21,608 nucleotides of DNA from a virus: positions 1 to 21,608 of the IMG/VR virus record IMGVR_UViG_3300017776_000242; one strand, written 5' to 3'. This document shows, in pieces, positions 5,848-14,782 of the stretch. Position 1 is the first letter of the stretch; each line of letters begins with the position of its first letter. The notes under the pieces are model-generated. The model was given only the letters and a program-made list of their open reading frames with translations, made no database searches and was not told where the DNA came from. The position numbers were made by a program, and so were the translations under genes.

Positions 5848-6156
5848 ATGGCTAAATTTGACGAAAACAAAACACCACTTGGCTTAATACCACCAGAAGC
5901 ATTAGCTCAAATTGCTGATGTCTTTGGCTTTGGTGCTGAAAAGTATGGTGTAAACAATTGGCGTTATGATGGCGACTCAACCAGCTGGATTCGAACATAT
6001 TCATCTGTTCAGCGACATCTTAATGCATGGCATTCTAGTATTGACAATGACGATGAATCTGGTATGACTCATCTTGCGCATGCAGCGACTCAAATCATGA
6101 TTCTCATGACACATGCTATTGAACATCCAGAAGTCGATGATAGGTACAAAAAATGA
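5848..6156 (+). CDS. dATP/dGTP diphosphohydrolase N-terminal-like protein
   Basis: The 102-residue protein matches a phage family that I recall as the dATP/dGTP diphosphohydrolase N-terminal domain: KTPLGLIPPEALAQIADVFGFGAEKYGVNNWR (8-39), then RHLNAWHSS...DDESGMTHLAHAATQI (56-83). The E/H/D residues in the second block probably bind metal. The family is helical and MazG-like, converting a dNTP to dNMP and pyrophosphate. Here it directly precedes, and overlaps by four bases (ATGA), the dCMP hydroxymethylase gene, so a dNTP-pool role such as supplying dCMP from dCTP is attractive but unproven. AAAGGA lies ahead of the ATG. This is the second candidate pyrophosphatase in the window. Confidence 0.8.
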   Translation: MAKFDENKTPLGLIPPEALAQIADVFGFGAEKYGVNNWRYDGDSTSWIRTYSSVQRHLNAWHSSIDNDDESGMTHLAHAATQIMILMTHAIEHPEVDDRYKK

Positions 6157-6803
6157 AAATAAGTGATATAAGAAATCATTTTCGTAATGAATTATTAAAT
6201 AAAAATTTTACAACTGATCGTAATGGCAGTAAAACTATTGAATTGCTTGGTGCATCTTTCCATGCTACTGAACCAGCAATCTTTGGTAAACCAAACCAAG
6301 AATATATTGATGCTGAAATATCATGGTATGAGTCTCAATCAACAAACATTAACGATATTTACGTTGATAGAGATCCACCTAAAGCTTGGCAAATGACAGC
6401 AAATCGTCATGGTGAAATTAATTCTAATTATGGTCATCTCATCTGGAGTGAACAATATCATAATCAGTTTAATTCAGTTGTTAATGAACTAAGAACCAAA
6501 CCTGACTCGCGTAGAGCATCGATGATTTATACTCGTCCAAGTATATGGGTCGAATATAATGATCAAAACAAAAATGATTTTATTTGTACTAATTCGGTGA
6601 CATACTATATTCGAGATGATGAATTACATTGTGTAGTACAAATGAGATCAAACGATGTTATATTTGGCTATCGTAATGATTATGCATGGCAAGAATATGT
6701 TCTTTGCGCATTGGCTGATGAACTTGGCGTTAATGATGGTGATATGTACTGGCAAGTACAGAATTTACATGTCTATGAAAGACATTTTGATTTGGTGAAA
6801 TAA
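6153..6803 (+). CDS. 42: Deoxycytidylate (dCMP) hydroxymethylase, T4 gp42-like
   Basis: A thymidylate-synthase-fold enzyme that makes 5-hydroxymethyl-dCMP from dCMP and methylenetetrahydrofolate. It closely follows T4 gp42: EIxWYxSxS near 55-63, GEINSNYGHLIWSE (87-100), PDSRRASMIYTRPS (117-130), NDFICTNSVTY (141-151) with catalytic Cys145, and VVQMRSNDVIFGYRNDYAWQ (161-180). Cys145 and Asp176 are both offset by three from T4 Cys148 and Asp179. That Asp replaces the Asn of thymidylate synthases and selects cytosine over uracil, so the enzyme should act on dCMP. At 216 residues it is about 30 shorter than T4 gp42, ending at LHVYERHFDLV. It overlaps both neighbours, which are also nucleotide enzymes. 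It implies 5hmC in the phage DNA. Confidence 0.93.
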   Translation: MKISDIRNHFRNELLNKNFTTDRNGSKTIELLGASFHATEPAIFGKPNQEYIDAEISWYESQSTNINDIYVDRDPPKAWQMTANRHGEINSNYGHLIWSEQYHNQFNSVVNELRTKPDSRRASMIYTRPSIWVEYNDQNKNDFICTNSVTYYIRDDELHCVVQMRSNDVIFGYRNDYAWQEYVLCALADELGVNDGDMYWQVQNLHVYERHFDLVK

Positions 6804-7267
6804 TGAACGATTGGGGAATATCAAAAACTTATAAATGGGATAAGCGATATCTTGAATTAGCTCGACATATCGCGTCTTGGTCTAAAGATCCATCTCGTAA
6901 AATTGGAGCTGTTGCTGTAGGAACTAAAGGACAGGTTTTAGCTCAAGGTTATAATGGATTTCCACGTGGAATTGACGATAAAGATTCTATGTACAATAAT
7001 AAAATTACTAAATATGAAAGGGTCGTTCATGCTGAAATGAACTGTATATATAATGCTACATATAACGGCACTTCATTAGATGGATCAACAATGTATATTC
7101 ACGGATTACCAGTTTGTTCTGAATGCGCTAAAGGTATTATACAAGTTGGTGTAACAAGAGTTGTAACATCAGAAATAGATGATTCAATGCCAGAACGATG
7201 GGTTGAATCTACAGTATTAACTAGAAAACTGTTTGAAGAGGCAGGAATTATTTATGACTTCATTTAA
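6803..7267 (+). CDS. cd: dCMP deaminase
   Basis: The 154-residue zinc deaminase has H76-A-E78 (zinc ligand and catalytic Glu) and PVCSEC (Cys105, Cys108) as remaining zinc ligands. It has the dCMP-deaminase-type N-terminal block SKDPSRKIGAVAVG and QGYNGFPRGIDD. It converts dCMP to dUMP, feeding dTMP synthesis, here presumably by the ThyX encoded at 16617-17276. Hydroxymethylase and deaminase thus compete for dCMP, and adjacency (TAATG overlap) would keep them in proportion. The motif has PVC rather than the usual PC before the first zinc Cys. An extra zinc site as in T4 deaminase is not obvious. Confidence 0.9.
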   Translation: MNDWGISKTYKWDKRYLELARHIASWSKDPSRKIGAVAVGTKGQVLAQGYNGFPRGIDDKDSMYNNKITKYERVVHAEMNCIYNATYNGTSLDGSTMYIHGLPVCSECAKGIIQVGVTRVVTSEIDDSMPERWVESTVLTRKLFEEAGIIYDFI

Positions 7268-7562
7268 AAAAGACAGGTTTGACTTAGAGCAAGCGATCAT
7301 GAATGCATGGGCAACATCTGAAGATCTAGATCTCGTATATCATAATACAGATAACTTAATTTTAAATCCTAAAGATTGTGATACATTACAAAATCAAATG
7401 CTTGGATTAAAATATATATTTGAATTACGAATGGAAAAAGTTTGGAGCATCTTTGAAGAGATGATCAAAACCGAACAATTTAAAGAACACGATGCGCTTA
7501 CGGCTGATACTAGCTGGAAAGCTTTTGACGACTGGAAGAAACAACAGGATCCAGCTCAATAA
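7254..7562 (+). CDS. Conserved T4-like phage protein of unknown function
   Basis: 102 residues from ATG 7254, chosen because AGGA (7243-7246) sits seven bases upstream; an in-frame TTG at 7233 has no site. The sequence is mostly helical and acidic: DLEQAIMNAWATSEDLDLVY, then a middle helix (NQMLGLKYIFELRMEKVWSIFEEMI). I recognise this pattern from many T4-like marine phages, where it is an unnamed protein near replication or nucleotide genes. No catalytic motif is seen. It overlaps the end of the deaminase gene by 14 bases and is followed within ten bases by the tRNA. Confidence 0.75.
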   Translation: MTSFKKDRFDLEQAIMNAWATSEDLDLVYHNTDNLILNPKDCDTLQNQMLGLKYIFELRMEKVWSIFEEMIKTEQFKEHDALTADTSWKAFDDWKKQQDPAQ

Positions 7563-7568
7563 GAATTT

Positions 7569-7645
<77 letters not shown>

Positions 7646-7659
7646 AATAAAGAGTTGAA

Positions 7660-7803
7660 ATGAAACGTACAAATGGTATATGGTTATTAAGAGGAATACT
7701 ACTAATATGGCTAGCATTTTCCATCAAAAATACCGACGATTTATATGGAGTAAGATATAGTATGAGAATAATTAATGAATGTAAAATCGTAAAAGGAGAA
7801 TGA
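7660..7803 (+). CDS. 47-residue predicted membrane peptide
   Basis: A short ORF immediately after the tRNA. It has a basic start (MKRTNG) and a hydrophobic stretch IWLLRGILLIWLAFSI, followed by a polar, mixed-charge end. One membrane segment is likely, positive side in. The upstream site is weak (AAAGAG), so expression is uncertain. Its last codons carry the AAAGGAGA ribosome site of the next gene, and its TGA stop ends two bases before that gene's ATG. No family is recognised. Confidence 0.5.
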   Translation: MKRTNGIWLLRGILLIWLAFSIKNTDDLYGVRYSMRIINECKIVKGE

Positions 7804-8165: not shown

Positions 8166-8412
8166 AGAGTTTACAACCCCTAAATATACAATCGATTGGT
8201 ATGTTAAATGGGCAGCTTCTGTAATTGTTCTTTGCGCAATGTCTATTAGAGGCATTGATGGACTACAAATGTGGGATCTTGTTCTATCAGCAATCGGTAT
8301 CGCATTGTGGTTATGGGTTTCTATCTTATGGAAAGATAGAGCTTTAATACTACTTAACGGGGTTGGATTAATGTTTTTGTTTAAAAATATTATGACTTCC
8401 CTTTACATTTAG
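8158..8412 (+). CDS. Predicted small inner-membrane protein
   Basis: From ATG 8158 the protein is 84 residues. In-frame ATGs at 8131 and 8095 would give 93 or 105 residues; the shorter form is preferred because it begins near the stop of the upstream gene, but no start has a convincing ribosome site. There are two or three hydrophobic segments: YVKWAASVIVLCAMSI, MWDLVLSAIGIALWLWVSIL and ALILLNGVGLMFLF. The central piece (DLVLSAIGIALWLWV...WKDRALI) resembles small membrane proteins of T4-like marine phages. The -35 box of the ino1 promoter lies in its last codons. Function is unknown. Confidence 0.6.
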   Translation: MTKEFTTPKYTIDWYVKWAASVIVLCAMSIRGIDGLQMWDLVLSAIGIALWLWVSILWKDRALILLNGVGLMFLFKNIMTSLYI

Positions 8413-8430
8413 TGAAAAATGTATTATAAT
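8402..8430 (+). promoter_or_regulatory. Sigma70-type promoter for the inositol/modification operon
   Basis: TTTACA (8402-8407), 17-bp spacer, TATAAT (8425-8430), then ATACATTATAACTATTA. Unlike the other strong copies it lacks TGn directly before the -10. AATGTA (8418-8423) and TACATT (8432-8437) form inverted arms around the -10, a possible operator. It is the only promoter seen before the five genes 8524-13411. Confidence 0.75.
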
Positions 8431-8461
8431 ATACATTATAACTATTAATATGATTAACAAA

Positions 8462-8495
8462 AGTGAGCTACTCTGATCCAGTCAAATGTCTCACT
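8462..8495 (+). other. Leader hairpin upstream of ino1
   Basis: AGTGAG (8462-8467) can pair with CTCACT (8490-8495) around a 22-base loop that itself holds a short ACT/AGT pairing. It falls in the roughly 85-base untranslated leader between promoter and ino1, 24 bases before the AAAGGAG site. It could be a regulatory or stabilising structure; chance pairing cannot be excluded. Confidence 0.3.
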
Positions 8496-8523
8496 ATAAT
8501 AAACTGATATAAAGGAGAAAATT

Positions 8524-9804
8524 ATGTCAAAAATAAATATCGCCATCGCGGGCGTAGGTAATTGTTCATCGGCACTTGTGCAAGGCGTTCAATATTATAT
8601 AGAAAAACCAGAAGATAAAATTGGCCTGATGTTTGAAGACATTGGTGGCTATTCAGCTGAGAATTTTAACTTCGTCGTTGGATTTGACGTTGATTCACGT
8701 AAAGTTGGTCAACGGTTAAATAAAGCAATTTATGCTAAACCAAATTGTAACATGGAAGTATTTCCTCCAGGTCACGATATGAGCTGTATTGCTAATGAGT
8801 CTACAGTATTCAGATCTCCAACTATGGACGGGATTGCTCCTCATATGAATGAGCTTGATGAAAATGTTACATTCCTAGAGGACAATAAAACCACACCAAT
8901 TACAGCATCTGAATATAGAAAAATTCTTAAAGATCGCAAAGTTGATGTATTACTTAATTATATGCCAGTAGGAGCTGAAGAAGCTGCAGCATGGCACATT
9001 GAAAATGCTATTAAGGCTGGTGTTCATGTTGTAAACTGTATGCCAACTTATATTTCTACAAAAGATGCTATGGAATTAGAGCAATTGGCTATTGACAATG
9101 GTGTAACAATTGTTGGCTCTGATATGAGATCTGATTATGGCGCATCACGTTTATCTGAAGTTCTTCAAGGATCTATTATGGATTCTGGCCTTTTGGTTAC
9201 ACAACACATTCAAGAAAATAAAGCTTGTGGTACAACCCAAGGTGATATGCGTAGGATTGGTAGAACAGCAAATACTGATTTCTTAAATATGGCAACAAAA
9301 GATCGTTTGAAAAATAAGCATATTTCAAAAGAGAATGTACTTAATGGCCAAGCTACAGTTCGTGGTAAAGATATCGCAGGACTTACAATGTATGCTGGTC
9401 CATCACTTACAGTTTTCCAAAAGCCAGGTGGTGAATATATTGGATCTGATAATAAAATTGCAAATATCGATATGGTATTTTGGGGTTGGGCTGGCGCTCG
9501 TTATGAGCTAACCGCTCGTTTATCAGTTCAGGATTCTCCAAATAGTGCTGGTATCGTGTATGATGCTATTAGATTCTGTAAAGTTGCTTCTGAAATGGGA
9601 ATTGTTGGTTACTTACGTGGACCATCAGCTTGGTCACAAAAGACTCCACCTGAGCAGCTTAAAACTGCAGATGCTAAATTTGAATGTGATGCATTGGCTC
9701 GTAGAGTTTTAACTGATAAAACAACTCCTCAACTTAAAGAAAATAATCCTAAAGTTGAAGATCTAACTTATACATTCCAATCAGGTGAAAACGATTATGC
9801 CTAA
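8524..9804 (+). CDS. ino1: myo-Inositol-1-phosphate synthase (Ino1)
   Basis: The 426-residue enzyme would convert glucose 6-phosphate to myo-inositol phosphate using NAD as a recycled cofactor. It is close to the bacterial/archaeal Ino1 type: INIAIAGVGNCSSALVQGV (Rossmann NAD site, 4-22), VVGFDVDSRKVG, VDVLLNYMPVGAEEA, INCMP-like VVNCMPTYIST, GSDMRSDYGAS, DFLNMATKDRLKNKHISK and the hallmark QDSPNSAGIVYDAI. It ends like actinobacterial Ino1 at PSAW...KTPPEQL, but with about 35 further residues and extra internal inserts. All expected blocks are present, so it is probably active. AAAGGAG precedes the ATG. Very unusual in a phage; it heads an operon with a HAD phosphatase and predicted DNA-modification proteins. 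Confidence 0.93.
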   Translation: MSKINIAIAGVGNCSSALVQGVQYYIEKPEDKIGLMFEDIGGYSAENFNFVVGFDVDSRKVGQRLNKAIYAKPNCNMEVFPPGHDMSCIANESTVFRSPTMDGIAPHMNELDENVTFLEDNKTTPITASEYRKILKDRKVDVLLNYMPVGAEEAAAWHIENAIKAGVHVVNCMPTYISTKDAMELEQLAIDNGVTIVGSDMRSDYGASRLSEVLQGSIMDSGLLVTQHIQENKACGTTQGDMRRIGRTANTDFLNMATKDRLKNKHISKENVLNGQATVRGKDIAGLTMYAGPSLTVFQKPGGEYIGSDNKIANIDMVFWGWAGARYELTARLSVQDSPNSAGIVYDAIRFCKVASEMGIVGYLRGPSAWSQKTPPEQLKTADAKFECDALARRVLTDKTTPQLKENNPKVEDLTYTFQSGENDYA

Positions 9805-10174
9805 GCAATTAATTAATACATTTGATATTGATGGAGTAATTTATTTCGGCGAGGACGTAACTGGTGTGCGTCCTGGCCGTGATGATGTTATTATTACCGG
9901 AAGGTCGTATCAACAAGAGCTTGATACCATTGTTATGCTAAAATCTCGTGATATACATAATCATGTAATGTTTAATCCTTTAAAGCGAAGTGATGATGCT
10001 TATAGCAGAAAAGCTTCAGGTATTCATAAAGCTAAATGTATCACAAAGCTTAAAGAATCATTTAAGATTGGACTACACTTTGAGGACGATCCTATTCAAA
10101 TTGAAGAAATTAAAAAGGTTCATCCAGAATTAAATATAATCCACTTAGTCAGAGAGGGTCTCATTGGCTACTAA
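9797..10174 (+). CDS. Small HAD-superfamily phosphatase-like protein
   Basis: 125 residues from ATG 9797, which has AGGTG upstream; an in-frame GTG at 9785 would add four residues. HAD motifs in order: FDIDGVI (nucleophile Asp10 and general acid Asp12), TGRS (34-37), Lys78/Lys80, and HFEDDP (95-99). There is no cap domain and no membrane segment. HAD enzymes use a phospho-aspartate to remove phosphate from small substrates. Its gene overlaps ino1 by eight bases, so inositol phosphate is an obvious candidate substrate, but a nucleotidase or polynucleotide phosphatase is equally possible from sequence. It overlaps the next gene by 11 bases. Confidence 0.8.
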   Translation: MPKQLINTFDIDGVIYFGEDVTGVRPGRDDVIITGRSYQQELDTIVMLKSRDIHNHVMFNPLKRSDDAYSRKASGIHKAKCITKLKESFKIGLHFEDDPIQIEEIKKVHPELNIIHLVREGLIGY

Positions 10175-11228
10175 TTCTTATAATTATGATTGGTGGTCAT
10201 TTGATAAAGACCTTATGCTTGACTTCAATCATTTCTTAAAAAAGATTAACGATCGTGCAGCTATTCATCAAGGTTTTACTAATGATCAATATGAAAATCT
10301 AAATCGTCATGGTGTAATTGACCATGGCTTAGGTGAGAACGTTGAATATTTTCATCCTACGATTACCTTAGATGATCGTATGAGATTTATTGGTACTGAA
10401 ATTGCTACATCTCGAATGAGCGATACTAATATTGTTGGTAACACGATTATATCTCACTTTTATGGGGCTCGTGGAGTTCACTGGATAGTATCAGGAAAGG
10501 AAGGAACCTTTGTTGATTTTGATCGAATTGCAGATGGCGATGATGACTATATTAAGTTTCTACGTAATAACATCGATAAAGCTATAAGAAATAAACAACC
10601 TATCTGGGGAACGACTGAGTTACACACATCGATTCAAACTGCTGGTAGAAACTATTGTCGTAAAAAATATAATGATCCAGATCGTAAGTTTCATCCAGTT
10701 GACGTAAGTGAATGGGTTGCTTCTTTCAGAGATACTAAAATCATTGAAGGTATGCTAGCTGCTAAAGATCTTTTTGAAGTGTTTACTTTATTAAGAACTT
10801 TACCAGGAGTTGGTGAATATTATGGATTCCATTGTGCAACTTCAACATCTGTTTTACCTCAAATGAAATATCATCATGATCAAAGGTTTGTTGCGCCAGG
10901 ACCAGGAGCAGTTTATACGATAAAATTACTTTGGCCAGATGTTCCTAATAAATATCTAGCTGAAGCAATTTATTTTATAAGAGAAAACGCAGCTGAAATT
11001 GGTTTGACTAAGGATGTTACGTTCCATGAATCAGCATATAATATTGAATTAGACAATGGTTCACATTTATTTAAAGAACAACAGAATGGATTAAAGTACT
11101 ACGGTACTGAGGTTCTATGTTGCCAGTATGGTGTATATCTACAAATAAGAGATGACGAAAAGGCCTGTGGAAGACGTCAAGTTGCTAGAGCTAAGACGCC
11201 TCAAAACACATTAACTGAGTTTTTTTAA
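10164..11228 (+). CDS. Alpha-glutamyl/putrescinyl thymine pyrophosphorylase-like DNA-modification protein
   Basis: 354 residues if TTG 10164 is the start, supported by AGAGAGGG (10150-10157) six bases upstream; the next ATG is at 10215. The central block has the helix-hairpin-helix signature LRTLPGVGEYYGFHCATST (LPGVG), then a D-Q-R-F-V-A-P-G-P-G-A stretch. This order (LPGVG, Asp, PGPGA) is what I recall for the DNA-glycosylase-like aGPT-pyrophosphorylase families proposed to attach groups to hydroxymethylated pyrimidines in phage DNA. The family's PWT N-terminal motif is not seen, so this is a divergent member. The tail TLTEFF resembles the polymerase's clamp peptide. A glycosylase with another role is the main alternative. 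Confidence 0.6.
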   Translation: MATNSYNYDWWSFDKDLMLDFNHFLKKINDRAAIHQGFTNDQYENLNRHGVIDHGLGENVEYFHPTITLDDRMRFIGTEIATSRMSDTNIVGNTIISHFYGARGVHWIVSGKEGTFVDFDRIADGDDDYIKFLRNNIDKAIRNKQPIWGTTELHTSIQTAGRNYCRKKYNDPDRKFHPVDVSEWVASFRDTKIIEGMLAAKDLFEVFTLLRTLPGVGEYYGFHCATSTSVLPQMKYHHDQRFVAPGPGAVYTIKLLWPDVPNKYLAEAIYFIRENAAEIGLTKDVTFHESAYNIELDNGSHLFKEQQNGLKYYGTEVLCCQYGVYLQIRDDEKACGRRQVARAKTPQNTLTEFF

Positions 11229-11229
11229 G

Positions 11230-12219
11230 ATGAAAAATATAATCAACTGCCCATTTATTCCAATAGCAAAACGTCATGCATCTCACCGAGGAGCTCAAGG
11301 CGTTATCTATGGAGATATGATTAAGGAAAAATATGGAAACTGCGATGTCAACTATGGTGGAGAAATTACAGATCATAATGCTTATGATAATCTCTGGGTT
11401 TATCATGGCAGTGATTATAGCGGCGGTCTTAATATGTTTGGTGGCGTTTATGGTTTCCCATACGTTGCTAACACTGTTAACTTTTCTAAATTTAAAGGTC
11501 AAGTCTATTCTATAGGTATGGATTTTCCTCCATATCATGAAATGATTAAAAGTAAATTAGATGCTGCTAAACGAGACGTTCAGCCTGAATGGCATCAGGT
11601 TGACTTAAAAAATCTTAAAAGAATGCATGACACAGCAATTAGAGTTGATTATCCTAATCCAACAGATAAAGTTATTATTGGTGATAGTCATTCAATATGT
11701 ATGTATCGTCCAGGTTGGACTGTTAATAGCGTTCCATTTAAAACCTTAAATGGCGCATTGAAACAAGGATTCAAAACATTTATTCCGCCAACAGGATATA
11801 AAGAACTTCATTGTTATTTTGGTAACATTGATGTGCGTCATCATATTATTAGATTAGAAGCAAGTATTATTGATTTGGCTGATAGATACATGGAAGAAGC
11901 TAGTAAATTTGACGCTAAGATATATGAACTATTGCCAATTGAACATGAATCAAGAAAGATCCCACAATCTGGATATCATAAAGGTAAACCATTCTGGGGT
12001 TCATGGCATGAAAGAACAGATATTCGTAATCAATTTAACGATTACATTGAAAAGGAATACGGCATCATAAGATGGACCGATAAATTAATGAATAAGGCTG
12101 GTGAGCTTGATTTTAAATATATGGAAAAGCCAAAATCAATTCATCTGTCAAGAGAGTTTTATCCATATTGGAATGGAATCGAAACTAAAATAACAAATAC
12201 ACTTGAGGAATTTTTCTAA
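11230..12219 (+). CDS. SGNH/GDSL-like domain protein in DNA-modification operon
   Basis: A 329-residue protein. The C-terminal two thirds carries SGNH-hydrolase blocks: IGDSHS (catalytic Ser), NGALKQG (Gly), YFGNIDVRHHI (Asn/Asp, similar to GEIDxRxH forms), and KSIHLSREFYPYW (His) near the end. The N-terminal ~110 residues (HASHRGAQGVIYGDMIKEKYG, then YDNLWVYHGSDYSGGLNMFGG) may be a separate domain and faintly recall the N-terminal half of phage beta-glucosyltransferases; this is weak. The family cleaves or transfers acyl groups, often on sugars. It ends in TLEEFF. It starts two bases after the previous stop with no clear ribosome site, so coupled translation is likely. The target is unknown. 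Confidence 0.6.
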   Translation: MKNIINCPFIPIAKRHASHRGAQGVIYGDMIKEKYGNCDVNYGGEITDHNAYDNLWVYHGSDYSGGLNMFGGVYGFPYVANTVNFSKFKGQVYSIGMDFPPYHEMIKSKLDAAKRDVQPEWHQVDLKNLKRMHDTAIRVDYPNPTDKVIIGDSHSICMYRPGWTVNSVPFKTLNGALKQGFKTFIPPTGYKELHCYFGNIDVRHHIIRLEASIIDLADRYMEEASKFDAKIYELLPIEHESRKIPQSGYHKGKPFWGSWHERTDIRNQFNDYIEKEYGIIRWTDKLMNKAGELDFKYMEKPKSIHLSREFYPYWNGIETKITNTLEEFF

Positions 12220-12220
12220 T

Positions 12221-13411
12221 ATGACTACATGGGCAAGCATTGTACCATTGATTGGTGGTGAGACCATCGCAATGGAAAACGTTTTTAAAACTAAACCAAA
12301 ATATTTTTTAACATTTGATGGATTTCAAGCAAATGAAGAACATTTGAGAAACTATTACAATAATGAGATTCCATATTTGAATTTGTCAAATGGTGATAAG
12401 CATACTGAAAGCGTTGATGTTGTAAATACAGTATGTCCATGTGCTGGTCTAAGTTCTTTAAGTCCTTCTGCTTCAAGCAATAATCCAGCAAATGATTGGA
12501 TGATTAAATCAGCAGAATATGTTTTAAGTGAAATGTCGCCAAAGGTATTTTGGGGAGAAAACGCTCCAAGACTAGCATCAAAAATGGGTGAACCAGTTGT
12601 AAGAAGATTACGTAAAATTGCTGAAGACAATGGTTATACATTTAGTATTTTTAAAACAAAATCTTTATTACATGGATTGAGTCAAGTTAGAGATCGAACA
12701 TTTTATTTCTTTTGGAAAGACAATACTGTTCCATTATTTGACTATATTGAAGTTCCACCAACAATGATTGCAGATGATATTAGATCTGTAGTGAATGACC
12801 CATCTGATGAAATGAGTCAAATTTTATGTAATGATAAAACTCCATCAGAAGATCCATATTATAAGTATATCTTAGAAGAACTCGAAGGTGGAATTACCCA
12901 CAAAGAGTTTGCAGCTAAGATTGAAAAGACCACAAATGTTCAAGATTATATTGAAGAACATACAACCTATAACAAGGTTGCTGAGTGGATGCGAGCAAAT
13001 GGATACGATAATGTAGCTCGTAAATGCGATAGAGCTTATCACAAGCTCAAAGCAGGTGGTAATATTATGCGTAAAGGCGTTGAAATTCCAAAGGATAAAA
13101 TTGGAGCTTTCGTAGGTCATATGCCAACAAGCATAACACATCCAGACGAAGATAGATTTTTAACAGTAAGAGAATCTATGTCTTTGATGAAATTGCCAAA
13201 TGACTATAAATTAGTGAATCCTAAAAGATCACTAAATCATATATGTCAAAATGTACCTGTAACCACAGCCGAACATCCAGCAGCTATGGTTAAAAAGTAT
13301 CTTGAGGGAAAACTTGATTCAATAGATACTGATTATATGGTACAAGATAATAAGAAAAAAACCTATGAATTTGTAAAAAACAGTTTACAATTGACTGAAT
13401 TTATGATATAA
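12221..13411 (+). CDS. DNA (cytosine-5) methyltransferase
   Basis: 396 residues from ATG 12221, one base after the previous stop, with GAGGA (12205-12209) upstream. Motif order is that of C5 methyltransferases: ASIVPLIGGETIAMENV (motif I-like), TFDGFQANEEH (II), VNTVCPCAGLSSLSP (IV, catalytic Cys74), WGENAPRL (VI, ENA at 113-115), LHGLSQVRDRTFYFFW (VIII), a target-recognition region around 170-300, TVRESMSLMKLPNDY (IX, 315-329) and ICQNVPVTTA (X, 341-350). Motif IV reads CPCAGLS instead of PPCQGFS, a divergence at the active loop. It should methylate cytosine in a short site. A C5 enzyme is unexpected in a phage making hydroxymethylcytosine, where most sites would be blocked. The last 11 codons and the stop lie in the next promoter. 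Confidence 0.88.
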   Translation: MTTWASIVPLIGGETIAMENVFKTKPKYFLTFDGFQANEEHLRNYYNNEIPYLNLSNGDKHTESVDVVNTVCPCAGLSSLSPSASSNNPANDWMIKSAEYVLSEMSPKVFWGENAPRLASKMGEPVVRRLRKIAEDNGYTFSIFKTKSLLHGLSQVRDRTFYFFWKDNTVPLFDYIEVPPTMIADDIRSVVNDPSDEMSQILCNDKTPSEDPYYKYILEELEGGITHKEFAAKIEKTTNVQDYIEEHTTYNKVAEWMRANGYDNVARKCDRAYHKLKAGGNIMRKGVEIPKDKIGAFVGHMPTSITHPDEDRFLTVRESMSLMKLPNDYKLVNPKRSLNHICQNVPVTTAEHPAAMVKKYLEGKLDSIDTDYMVQDNKKKTYEFVKNSLQLTEFMI

Positions 13412-13412
13412 T
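13384..13412 (+). promoter_or_regulatory. Sigma70-type promoter for the bS21-uvsX-gp41 unit, embedded in a CDS end
   Basis: TTTACA (13384-13389), 17-bp spacer, TATAAT (13407-13412), extended -10 TGa, followed by ATACAATATATTA. The TAA inside the -10 is the stop codon of the methyltransferase gene. The bS21 gene starts 34 bases after the -10. Confidence 0.85.
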
Positions 13413-13445: not shown

Positions 13446-13718
13446 ATGCCTAGTATTAATTTAAAAGCACAGCCCGCTAAATACCGTAAAGGTAAGAAAA
13501 ACCAGCGGCCACCACAAGACATGCCATTCGATGTTGCTTTGAGAAAGTTCAAAAAAGCAGTTGAAGCGGCAGGTATTCTACAAGATGTACGTAGAAAAGA
13601 ATATTATGAAAAACCTACTGCCAAGCGCAAACGTAAAAAAGCCGAAGCTATCGCGCGTCATAAAAGGCAGGTTGATTCTATTCAACAAACACAATTCGGC
13701 AGGAGAAAAGTACGATGA
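13446..13718 (+). CDS. rpsU: Ribosomal protein bS21 homologue
   Basis: 90 residues; from about 27 on it reads as bS21: [49 protein letters not shown], with the F-x-x-A-L-R-x-F-K/R-x-x-V-E-x-A-G-I and EKP-x-x-KRKRKK signatures. Bacterial bS21 is about 70 residues; this one has an extra basic N-terminal region of around 25 residues. bS21 sits on the 30S platform near the anti-Shine-Dalgarno end and helps initiation. Phage copies are known and are proposed to join host ribosomes. Heading the recombination/replication unit and overlapping uvsX (ATGA) is notable. GAGGA precedes the ATG. Confidence 0.93.
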
Positions 13719-14782
13719 GTATAATGGATAAACTAAAAAAGAACTCAAAGATTAAAACTTCGGATACACTATCTGAAAGTATTTTCTTTGGTGATAAGAC
13801 CATGGTCAAGACAGAAGTTCCAATGATCAATGTTGCTCTCTCAGGAGATCCAGACGGTGGATTAACTTCTGGTTTGACAGTATTGGCTGGTCCATCTAAA
13901 CACTTTAAAACATCATTTGCATTATTGATGGCTGCGTCTTATATGAAAGAACATAGTGATGCAGTAATGCTATTTTATGATTCAGAGTTTGGTTCACCAC
14001 AATCATATTTTGAAGCATTCGGTATTGACACTAGTCGAGTACTTCATACGCCAATTACTGATGTTGAACAACTTAAATTTGATCTAGTTGGTCAATTGGA
14101 TAATATTGAGCGTAAAGATAAAGTAATTATTGTTATTGATTCAATTGGTAACCTTGCTTCTAAGAAAGAACTTGAAGATGCTTTAAATGAAAAATCAGTT
14201 GCTGATATGTCAAGAGCAAAAGCACTTAAAGGTCTATTCCGTATGGTAACACCTTACTTGACTATGAAAGATGTGCCTCTATTGGCTATTAATCATACGT
14301 ATCAAGAAATGGGTCTATTCCCTAAAGCTGTAGTTTCCGGTGGTACTGGTATTTACTATTCAGCTGATAATATCTGGATTCTAGGTCGTAGACAAAACAA
14401 GCAAGGTATGGAAGTTACAGGATATGACTTTATTATTAATGTAGAAAAATCCAGAATGGTAAAAGAGAAATCTAAGATTCCAGTATCGGTCTCATGGGAC
14501 GGCGGTGTAGAACGCAATAGTGGTTTACTTGATATTGCTTTAGCTGGTGGATTTGTAGTTAAACCAAGTAATGGTTGGTACTGCATGGTTGATCAAGATA
14601 CCGGTGAAATGGTTGAACCTAAAGTAAGAGAAAAGCAAACTAGAACTGATGAGTTCTGGGAACCAATTCTCAATACTGATAAGTTTAAAAACTTCTTAAT
14701 TAATCAATACCAAATAGGCCATAAATCTTTAATTGATTTTGACCCAGAAAGTCCTTTACAAAACAATGAAAATGTGGTATAA
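13715..14782 (+). CDS. uvsX: UvsX, RecA-like recombinase
   Basis: 355 residues, closely following T4 UvsX: Walker [10 protein letters not shown] (59-67), FYDSEFG (88-93, catalytic Glu region), Walker [18 protein letters not shown] (136-152), [18 protein letters not shown] and INHTYQEMG plus the L2-like [13 protein letters not shown]. It forms the presynaptic filament on single-stranded DNA for strand exchange and recombination-dependent replication. AGGAG at 13701-13705 precedes the ATG. The tail PLQNNENVV and its TAA lie within a promoter-like sequence (14755-14783). It is downstream of bS21 and upstream of a small protein and gp41, as usual in T4-like phages for uvsX and 41. Confidence 0.95.

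Follow-up and report, generated by a model that had tools for sequence, protein, structure and literature searches.

A conserved gene cassette suggests that a marine bacterial virus disguises its DNA with an inositol-type group

Introduction

Why would a virus of marine bacteria carry the means to make inositol within the region devoted to copying its DNA? The question is raised by the IMG/VR virus record IMGVR_UViG_3300017776_000242, a 21.6-kb sequence taken over its whole length and called here the window. It covers the replication region of a T4-like phage, in which DNA polymerase and UvsX were recognised by search and the replicative helicase by reading only. Open reading frame (ORF) analysis places five genes of the window on one strand in tight succession: ino1, encoding a homologue of myo-inositol-phosphate synthase, a gene for a HAD phosphatase, two genes whose products are called here gp3 and gp4, and a gene for a C5-cytosine-methyltransferase (C5-MTase)-like protein. 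The best explanation overall, to which we give a probability of about 0.6, is that the 5-hydroxymethylcytosine (5hmC) of the phage DNA receives inositol, or a group derived from it, through the action of gp4 and gp3.

Organisation and conservation of the operon

The ino1 and HAD genes overlap by 8 bases and the HAD and gp3 genes by 11 bases, and gaps of 1 base each separate gp3 from gp4 and gp4 from the C5-MTase gene. The two best matches to a sigma70-like promoter between 7.5 and 14 kb (8402-8430 and 13384-13412) bracket the operon exactly. These sites and the ORF coordinates confirmed the arrangement put forward in the original prediction, made from the sequence of this DNA, in which one promoter precedes five packed genes and the next lies at the end of the operon. 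It should be noted that promoter-like sites overall were no more frequent than in shuffled sequence. Furthermore, only 15 of the 85 distinct ino1 genes carried this motif upstream, so this promoter is not a general feature of the cassette.

To describe the neighbourhood of these genes in other viruses, loci were collected with gp3, gp4 or ino1 as the query; the counts given below therefore measure linkage, not abundance, and the ino1 tally includes the ino1-seeded loci. Searches with the window proteins yielded 42 gp3 and 57 ino1 loci, and profile searches 332 gp3 and at least 592 gp4 candidates. Across 236 partly redundant loci, the pairs ino1-HAD, HAD-gp3 and gp3-gp4 were adjacent and co-directional 190, 189 and 190 times, respectively, with median gaps of -20 to 0 bases, a conservation of gene order far beyond chance. 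When identical sequences were removed and flanks of 3 kb upstream and 2.5 kb downstream were required, 56 distinct gp3 genes remained, with ino1 nearby in 54, HAD in 55, gp4 in 51 and the C5-MTase gene in 44. The original prediction had staked itself on the co-occurrence of ino1 with the gp3-type gene in related phages, and it withstood this survey. Among 34 distinct ino1 genes with wide flanks, the gene for dCMP hydroxymethylase accompanied 29, HAD 33, gp3 32, gp4 32 and the C5-MTase gene 30. These six genes co-occur in order across marine phages, and the cassette is a widespread phage module, present completely or partly in hundreds of related virus sequences. A nucleotide BLAST search of the operon against phage records gave no match.

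Such order and linkage bear out the view of the operon as a conserved cassette of the hypermodification type, and we consider it very probable that its target is 5hmC. That the five genes would instead be a loose set of ordinary auxiliary metabolism, without a common product, is highly improbable, since the genes keep their order and overlaps even where protein identity falls to about 40-60%. The module is nevertheless not rigid: in four close relatives (L046, L047, L051 and L058) ino1 is 92-94% identical and gp3 only 26-32%, indicating that gp3 is exchanged as a module.

Supply of 5hmC and of inositol

Upstream of the operon lies a dCMP hydroxymethylase gene whose product matches T4 gp42 (1b49) with E 2.4e-67 (phmmer). 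The diagnostic Asp in the motif RNDYAWQ was invariant in 27 of 27 homologues, in agreement with membership of this enzyme type. We take this residue to be the equivalent of T4 D179, which stands in place of Asn177 of thymidylate synthase. The match and the invariant Asp make it very likely that the window DNA carries 5hmC, as had been supposed originally. Directly before the hydroxymethylase gene (5848-6156) is a gene for a dATP/dGTP diphosphohydrolase-like protein (PF18909, E 3.6e-28), which might be the dCTPase expected of a 5hmC phage. A tRNA-Arg gene (tct) lies on the plus strand at 7569-7645; the minus-strand ORF at 7425-7727 that overlaps it is probably spurious.

Regarding the inositol side, Ino1 of the window matched Ino1 of Mycobacterium tuberculosis (1gr0) with E 1.5e-47 and 166 bits. 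Residues K265, K269, D309, K311, D337 and K373 were invariant in 23 of 23 sequences, the distant Stenotrophomonas and Caulobacter phage proteins included (40% identical copies among them). The retention of catalytic residues even in such distant copies points to selection for catalysis, and by these features the phage protein is a member of the inositol-phosphate synthase family with intact catalytic lysines and aspartates. The second match in the PDB was a five-membered-cyclitol-phosphate synthase, at 94 bits, and the added group might thus be another cyclitol, for instance a five-membered one. The much higher score of the M. tuberculosis enzyme and the invariant Ino1 lysines make this improbable.

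The HAD protein carries the DxDG, T-G-R, K and D-D motifs as invariant residues (D14, D16, G17, T38-G39-R40, K82 and E100-D101-D102), and its gene also lies 3' of ino1 in Stenotrophomonas phage Marzo and Caulobacter phage Cr30. It is predicted to be an inositol-phosphate phosphatase. From the families of the two proteins, their intact active sites and their strict pairing, we infer that Ino1 and HAD together would provide free inositol. The pair also occurs apart from gp4. Cr30 has genes for ADDT and a TAGT-like protein followed by ino1 and HAD, which short genes separate from each other, and the Stenotrophomonas phages have the pair next to genes of the 7-deazaguanine type. The two genes therefore behave as a mobile donor-supply pair, travelling among DNA-modification systems. 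In phage Marzo (L093:7098-12621), ino1 and HAD stand among GTP cyclohydrolase, QueC-like and TGT-like genes. There, the cyclitol might conceivably be carried by a 7-deazaguanine base; an ino1-HAD-QueC-like arrangement is found in locus L073 too.

Inositol could also be an intermediate, either glycosylated first, as in mycothiol synthesis, or serving as a metabolite or osmolyte while gp3 and gp4 add something else. The Ino1 family is of the mycothiol type, and the phage protein shares family and catalytic residues with the M. tuberculosis enzyme; its score against TIGR03450, 196 bits, is under the equivalog cut-off of 638 bits, and we therefore do not claim mycothiol membership for it. A GT4-like glycosyltransferase gene near ino1 in L078 and L089, UDP-sugar genes flanking the cassette in L079 and the Stenotrophomonas arrangement would fit an intermediate. 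However, neither a cysteine ligase nor a deacetylase of the mycothiol route could be recognised in the window, most cassettes are without a glycosyltransferase of the MshA kind, and the fixed linkage of ino1 is to gp3 and gp4 or, in Cr30, to ADDT, that is, to DNA-modification genes. We regard this explanation as unlikely.

gp4 joins a BGT-like half to an SGNH domain

The AlphaFold2 (AF2) model of gp4 (pLDDT 91.9) has two domains, one resembling the β-glucosyltransferase (BGT) of T4 at about residues 1-140 and an SGNH domain at about residues 140-315. The latter matched 2hsj (Foldseek E 3e-5; Z 11.9 over 155 residues). In agreement with membership of the SGNH superfamily, S153, the Ser of the GDS motif, and H305, the His of block V, were invariant in 49 of 49 homologues. 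The N-terminal domain of T4 BGT (PF09198) was matched by 21 of these 49 (best 6e-5), the window protein itself scoring 13.9 bits, under the cut-off of 27 bits. Alignment of gp4 with T4 BGT by hhalign gave E 5e-5 and a probability of 67%, with N-x-F-G-G in the common segment, and T4 BGT structures appeared lower in the Foldseek list of gp4 (1c3j, probability 0.80). The UDP-glucose-binding C-terminal domain of BGT is not found in gp4, the C-terminal half of which has the SGNH fold.

In T4, bgt sits between gene 42 and uvsX, and gp4 is likewise encoded between a gene 42 homologue and uvsX. From the BGT-like N-terminus and this common slot, we infer that gp4 descended from, or was built on, a 5hmC-recognition domain of the BGT type. 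The chimera of a BGT-like half with an intact SGNH domain is new here: the initial label, SGNH-like, was right for the C-terminal domain and had missed the N-terminal half. Moreover, of all the system's components gp4 is the most general one and would be the 5hmC-facing part, which makes it, beyond the aGPT-like protein alone, a candidate for acting on 5hmC.

gp3 belongs to the PF18723 family and resembles PUGT in fold

gp3 matched PF18723 (HMUDK_hel, the family formerly named aGPT-PPlase2) with E 6e-9 and 36.1 bits, above the curated cut-off of 25, and so did all of 36 homologues at E up to 1. By contrast, profile searches with PF18724, the ADDT/PUGT transferase family, gave no match for gp3 or its homologues. 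Both families are represented in the genome of Pseudomonas phage PaMx11. There, the PF18723 protein gp50 is standalone and adjoins the P-loop kinase gp49, and gp46 is PUGT, a member of the ADDT family and a proven 5-phosphomethyl-dU glycinyltransferase, which swaps the activated hydroxymethyl of 5-hydroxymethyluracil (5hmU) in DNA for glycine.

PUGT (8z2n) was also the top structural match of the AF2 model of gp3 (pLDDT 91.5), with a Foldseek probability of 0.94 and E 0.25; the superposition gave Z 10.8 and a root-mean-square deviation of 3.5 over 208 residues, the next matches having Z 9.7 and 9.3. As helical folds raise the background Z, this likeness is moderate evidence, and the sequence family is firmer. 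gp3 is predicted to be a DNA-base transferase or a base-flipping subunit. The name aGPT-like, under which it had first been described, holds for the family; by sequence, however, that family is the kinase's helical partner and not the transferase. An hmmsearch of the gp3 and gp4 profiles against PDB sequences gave no useful match.

The defence glycosylases Brig1 and Brig3 were considered as relatives of gp3 and rejected, as they are placed in the uracil-DNA-glycosylase superfamily in the paper describing them. A gp3-family gene also occurs in a bacterium, on Crocinitomix algicola contig NZ_LYPF02000017 (L234:9554-11580), without ino1 or gp4. Its neighbours encode a helix-turn-helix protein of the restriction-control type (PADLOC Control_protein and REase_II matches) and a 184-amino-acid protein that is a GIY-YIG-like nuclease by reading only, with no family match. 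This could possibly be a defence system that senses modified phage bases via the gp3 fold.

Variant cassettes exchange the donor genes around gp4

Several loci depart from the window's arrangement (Table 1). A homologue of TAGT/phrog_842 (E 4e-27), phrog_842 being the beta-glucosyl-HMC (hydroxymethylcytosine) alpha-glucosyltransferase, is inserted between HAD and gp3 in L004, L005, L045 and L090, and an FkbM-type methyltransferase is encoded in 19 loci. In L209, L211, L215, L224 and others, three genes, X1-X2-X3, take the place of ino1-HAD-gp3 and are followed by gp4 and often by the C5-MTase gene. X2 is threonine-dehydratase-like (phrog_7093, E 7e-36), and the set is called below the pyridoxal phosphate (PLP) module. 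X1 and X3 had no family match, and pairwise profile comparison detected no relationship of either with ADDT or gp3.

A fusion of gp4 with gp3 is found in the 44RR-type Aeromonas phages. Directly 5' of it they encode a sodium:solute symporter that resembles vSGLT most, which suggests import of the added group. In phage phiAS4, a UDP-galactopyranose mutase gene is followed by one whose product reads like a GT-B glycosyltransferase and then by gp4; in phage 25 this slot is occupied by unannotated genes whose sizes match. 44RR, phiAS4, avDM9-HANS and phage 25, which all have gp4, encode a T4-type hydroxymethylase.

Table 1. Coordinates of the features discussed; positions are those of the window unless a locus is given
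Feature	Position	Strand	Basis or remark
dCMP 5-hydroxymethylase (T4 gp42 type), predicted source of 5hmC	6153..6803	+	phmmer to 1b49
dCMP deaminase-like protein, nucleotide supply	6803..7267	+	PF00383 E 4.7e-20
sigma70-like promoter 5' of ino1, TTTACA-17-TATAAT	8402..8430	+	11/12 match, joint best in region
ino1, myo-inositol-phosphate synthase	8524..9804	+	TIGR03450 and 1gr0 matches
HAD phosphatase, predicted inositol-phosphate phosphatase	9797..10174	+	ATG start; phrog_415 E 6e-6; motifs
gp3, HMUDK_hel/aGPT-PPlase2 family, helix-hairpin-helix (HhH)-glycosylase-like fold	10164..11228	+	TTG start; PF18723
gp4, T4-BGT-like N-terminal half and SGNH domain	11230..12219	+	ATG start; PF09198, hhalign, AF2
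C5-cytosine-methyltransferase-like protein	12221..13411	+	ATG start; PF00145 E 5e-15 over 60-352
Next sigma70-like promoter, opening the uvsX unit, TTTACA-17-TATAAT	13384..13412	+	11/12 match, TG before -10
uvsX (RecA-like), right-hand landmark	13715..14782	+	similarity search
X1-X2-X3 alternative module	L224:2999-6022; L211:4227-7471
vSGLT-like symporter and gp4-gp3 fusion	L095:5408-9388		Aeromonas phage 44RR2.8t

Proposed route from 5hmC to an inositol-bearing base

Taken together, these observations suggest the following route. The hydroxymethylase would make hm5dCMP, and the DNA would very probably be replicated with 5hmC. Ino1 would convert host glucose-6-phosphate into inositol phosphate, from which HAD would strip the phosphate to leave free inositol. 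The BGT-like half of gp4 would recognise 5hmC in duplex DNA, and the Ser-His site of its SGNH domain would act on the 5-CH2OH, most likely turning it into a leaving group (an ester) and so replacing the kinase of thymidine systems. gp3, being of the aGPT-PPlase2/PUGT kind, with an HhH fold and a base-flipping action, would then swap the leaving group for an inositol hydroxyl, giving inositol-methyl-cytosine. In some relatives the product may be decorated further by the FkbM O-methyltransferase or the glucosyl-HMC glucosyltransferase homologue. The C5-MTase-like enzyme may act on residual cytosine, or help to activate 5hmC via a Cys-C6 adduct.

That an inositol or inositol-derived group is placed on the DNA seems to us probable. 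The division of labour, gp4 activating and gp3 exchanging, is tentative. The polyol or sugar coming from Ino1-HAD, or from the symporter, would be unactivated, and it is then the base that would have to be activated; PUGT likewise works on an activated base, the phosphorylated hydroxymethyl. A search of 13 related contigs (32-360 kb, all incomplete) for a hydroxymethylpyrimidine kinase (PF18748, PF18747), which barely detected its controls, found none. Matches to AAA_33 were mostly short P-loops in frames of 309-335 amino acids, probably of the clamp loader, with the exception of one in the 360-kb record. The original prediction had likewise remarked that the activating kinase was not seen. 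It is this result that favours gp4 as the activating and gp3 as the exchanging enzyme, and the gp4-gp3 fusion of 44RR suggests that their steps are tightly coupled. Bolder, and unlikely in our view, is the wider proposal that a cyclitol is joined to 5hmC with neither kinase nor nucleotide sugar, through ester activation by gp4 and exchange by gp3, and that gp4 is a universal adaptor for donor modules as different as inositol synthesis, sugar symport, UDP-galactofuranose and PLP enzymes.

Several points weigh against this assignment of roles. A kinase gene could lie in the unsequenced parts of the genomes. The sequence family of gp3 is the helical partner of the 5-hydroxymethyldeoxyuridine (5hmdU) kinase and not the proven transferase family ADDT, and gp3 may merely present the base. 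The likeness of gp4 to BGT is weak for single sequences (E 0.044). In phiAS4, which has neither gp3 nor ino1 with it, gp4 adjoins a putative glycosyltransferase, and such an enzyme would need no activated base. Free inositol may have a role outside DNA. Finally, SGNH enzymes are usually esterases or acyltransferases, and we know of none that activates a hydroxymethyl base.

The last two enzyme activities underlie the leading alternative, in which gp3, perhaps with a host kinase or a distant phage kinase, joins inositol to 5hmC and gp4 acts afterwards as a general finishing enzyme that acylates or trims the polyol or sugar so attached. A finishing role would also suit the variety of modules that gp4 accompanies, namely those with inositol synthesis, the symporter, the PLP set, and UDP-galactopyranose mutase with the putative glycosyltransferase. 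On the other hand, no gene for an acyl donor was seen, the fusion in 44RR speaks for coupled steps, and the BGT-like half suggests that gp4 touches 5hmC directly. We hold this alternative to be unlikely, though ahead of the other explanations weighed against installation by gp4 and gp3.

Relation to known systems

The cassette resembles T4 (gp42, bgt) in its T4-type dCMP hydroxymethylase, in the BGT-like N-terminal half of gp4 and in the slot of gp4 between gene 42 and uvsX; it differs in having an SGNH domain for the UDP-glucose-binding half and in adding inositol synthesis and an aGPT-PPlase2-type protein. The thymidine hypermodification systems of M6, PaMx11 and ViI (5hmdU kinase, HMUDK_hel, ADDT/PUGT) share with it the HMUDK_hel family of gp3, whose fold is nearest to PUGT, whereas in the cassette the base is 5hmC instead of 5hmU, no kinase or ADDT gene was found, and the predicted nucleophile is a polyol. 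TAGT (phrog_842), arabinosyl-hmC of RB69 (PMC6024577) and the pentosyl cytosine of Shewanella phage Thanatos (PMC12838424) are sugar-type decorations of a 5-substituted cytosine too, and a TAGT homologue is present in some ino1 cassettes; those systems use nucleotide sugars, whereas Ino1 and HAD would supply a free polyol. The nearest new system in the literature searched is the CmoA/CmoX/CmoY 5-carboxymethylcytosine system of Synechococcus phage S-B43 (PMC12783734), which also has a C5-MTase-like protein in a cytosine hypermodification cluster and differs in its base, its enzymes and a key residue, the cassette starting from the product of dCMP hydroxymethylase.

No paper joining inositol to phage DNA modification was found in the literature searched, the range of which did not take in the key thymidine-hypermodification papers, and inositol is not mentioned in the MetaGPA paper (PMC8670742). 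If the proposal is true, inositol would be a DNA-base substituent absent from the papers searched and made in the infected cell, and a large group of ocean phages would use it. 5hmC would be derivatised with neither nucleotide sugar nor kinase, by two new enzyme types useful for labelling this base. The swappable module would let phages change their DNA chemistry, probably escaping restriction, CRISPR and base-excision defences.

The C5-MTase-like protein and other occupants of the slot

The catalytic PC, EN and QxRxR motifs of the last protein of the operon align to HhaI and HaeIII, with P79-C80, E119-N120, Q161, R163 and R165 invariant. Its motif I is PLIGG and not FxGxGG, the first Gly of GxGG being replaced. 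No invariant acidic residue stands at the expected place of motif II, and the PF00145 alignment starts only at position 57. Read through the HaeIII alignment, Gln349 is invariant at the column that has Asn in HhaI (Asn304) and HaeIII and Arg in CmoX. A carboxymethyltransferase of the CmoX type was rejected, because this Gln stands where CmoX has its key Arg350. Replacement of all cytosine by 5hmC would leave a plain C5-methyltransferase little substrate, so a special role for this protein is likely.

Such a role could make it the key enzyme: its Cys would form a C6 adduct with 5hmC, water would be expelled and inositol would add to the exocyclic methylene, again without a kinase. C5-MTases reportedly couple thiols to 5hmC in vitro (Liutkeviciute and colleagues). 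The catalytic Cys and motifs are kept, motif I and the Gln column are altered as described, and a relative stands beside a 5hmC cassette of the sugar type in Pseudoalteromonas phage XG4 too. However, the gene is absent from cassettes such as L048, L067 and L075, 44RR has no relative in the tblastn list, and hydroxyls are poor nucleophiles in such a reaction. We consider this explanation rather improbable compared with installation by gp4 and gp3.

The relative in Pseudoalteromonas phage vB_Psh_XG4 (L250:100-6580, an unannotated record) is 30% identical and closes a cassette of dCMP hydroxymethylase (also T4-type), HAD-like, nucleotidyltransferase-like and two glycosyltransferase-like genes, the last three kinds being named by reading only. 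In phage C48C1 (L268:9481-14239), the UvsX of which is 75% identical, the slot before uvsX is without the ino1 cassette and holds genes for a DNA methyltransferase, a nucleotide-sugar epimerase and a UDP-glucose dehydrogenase.

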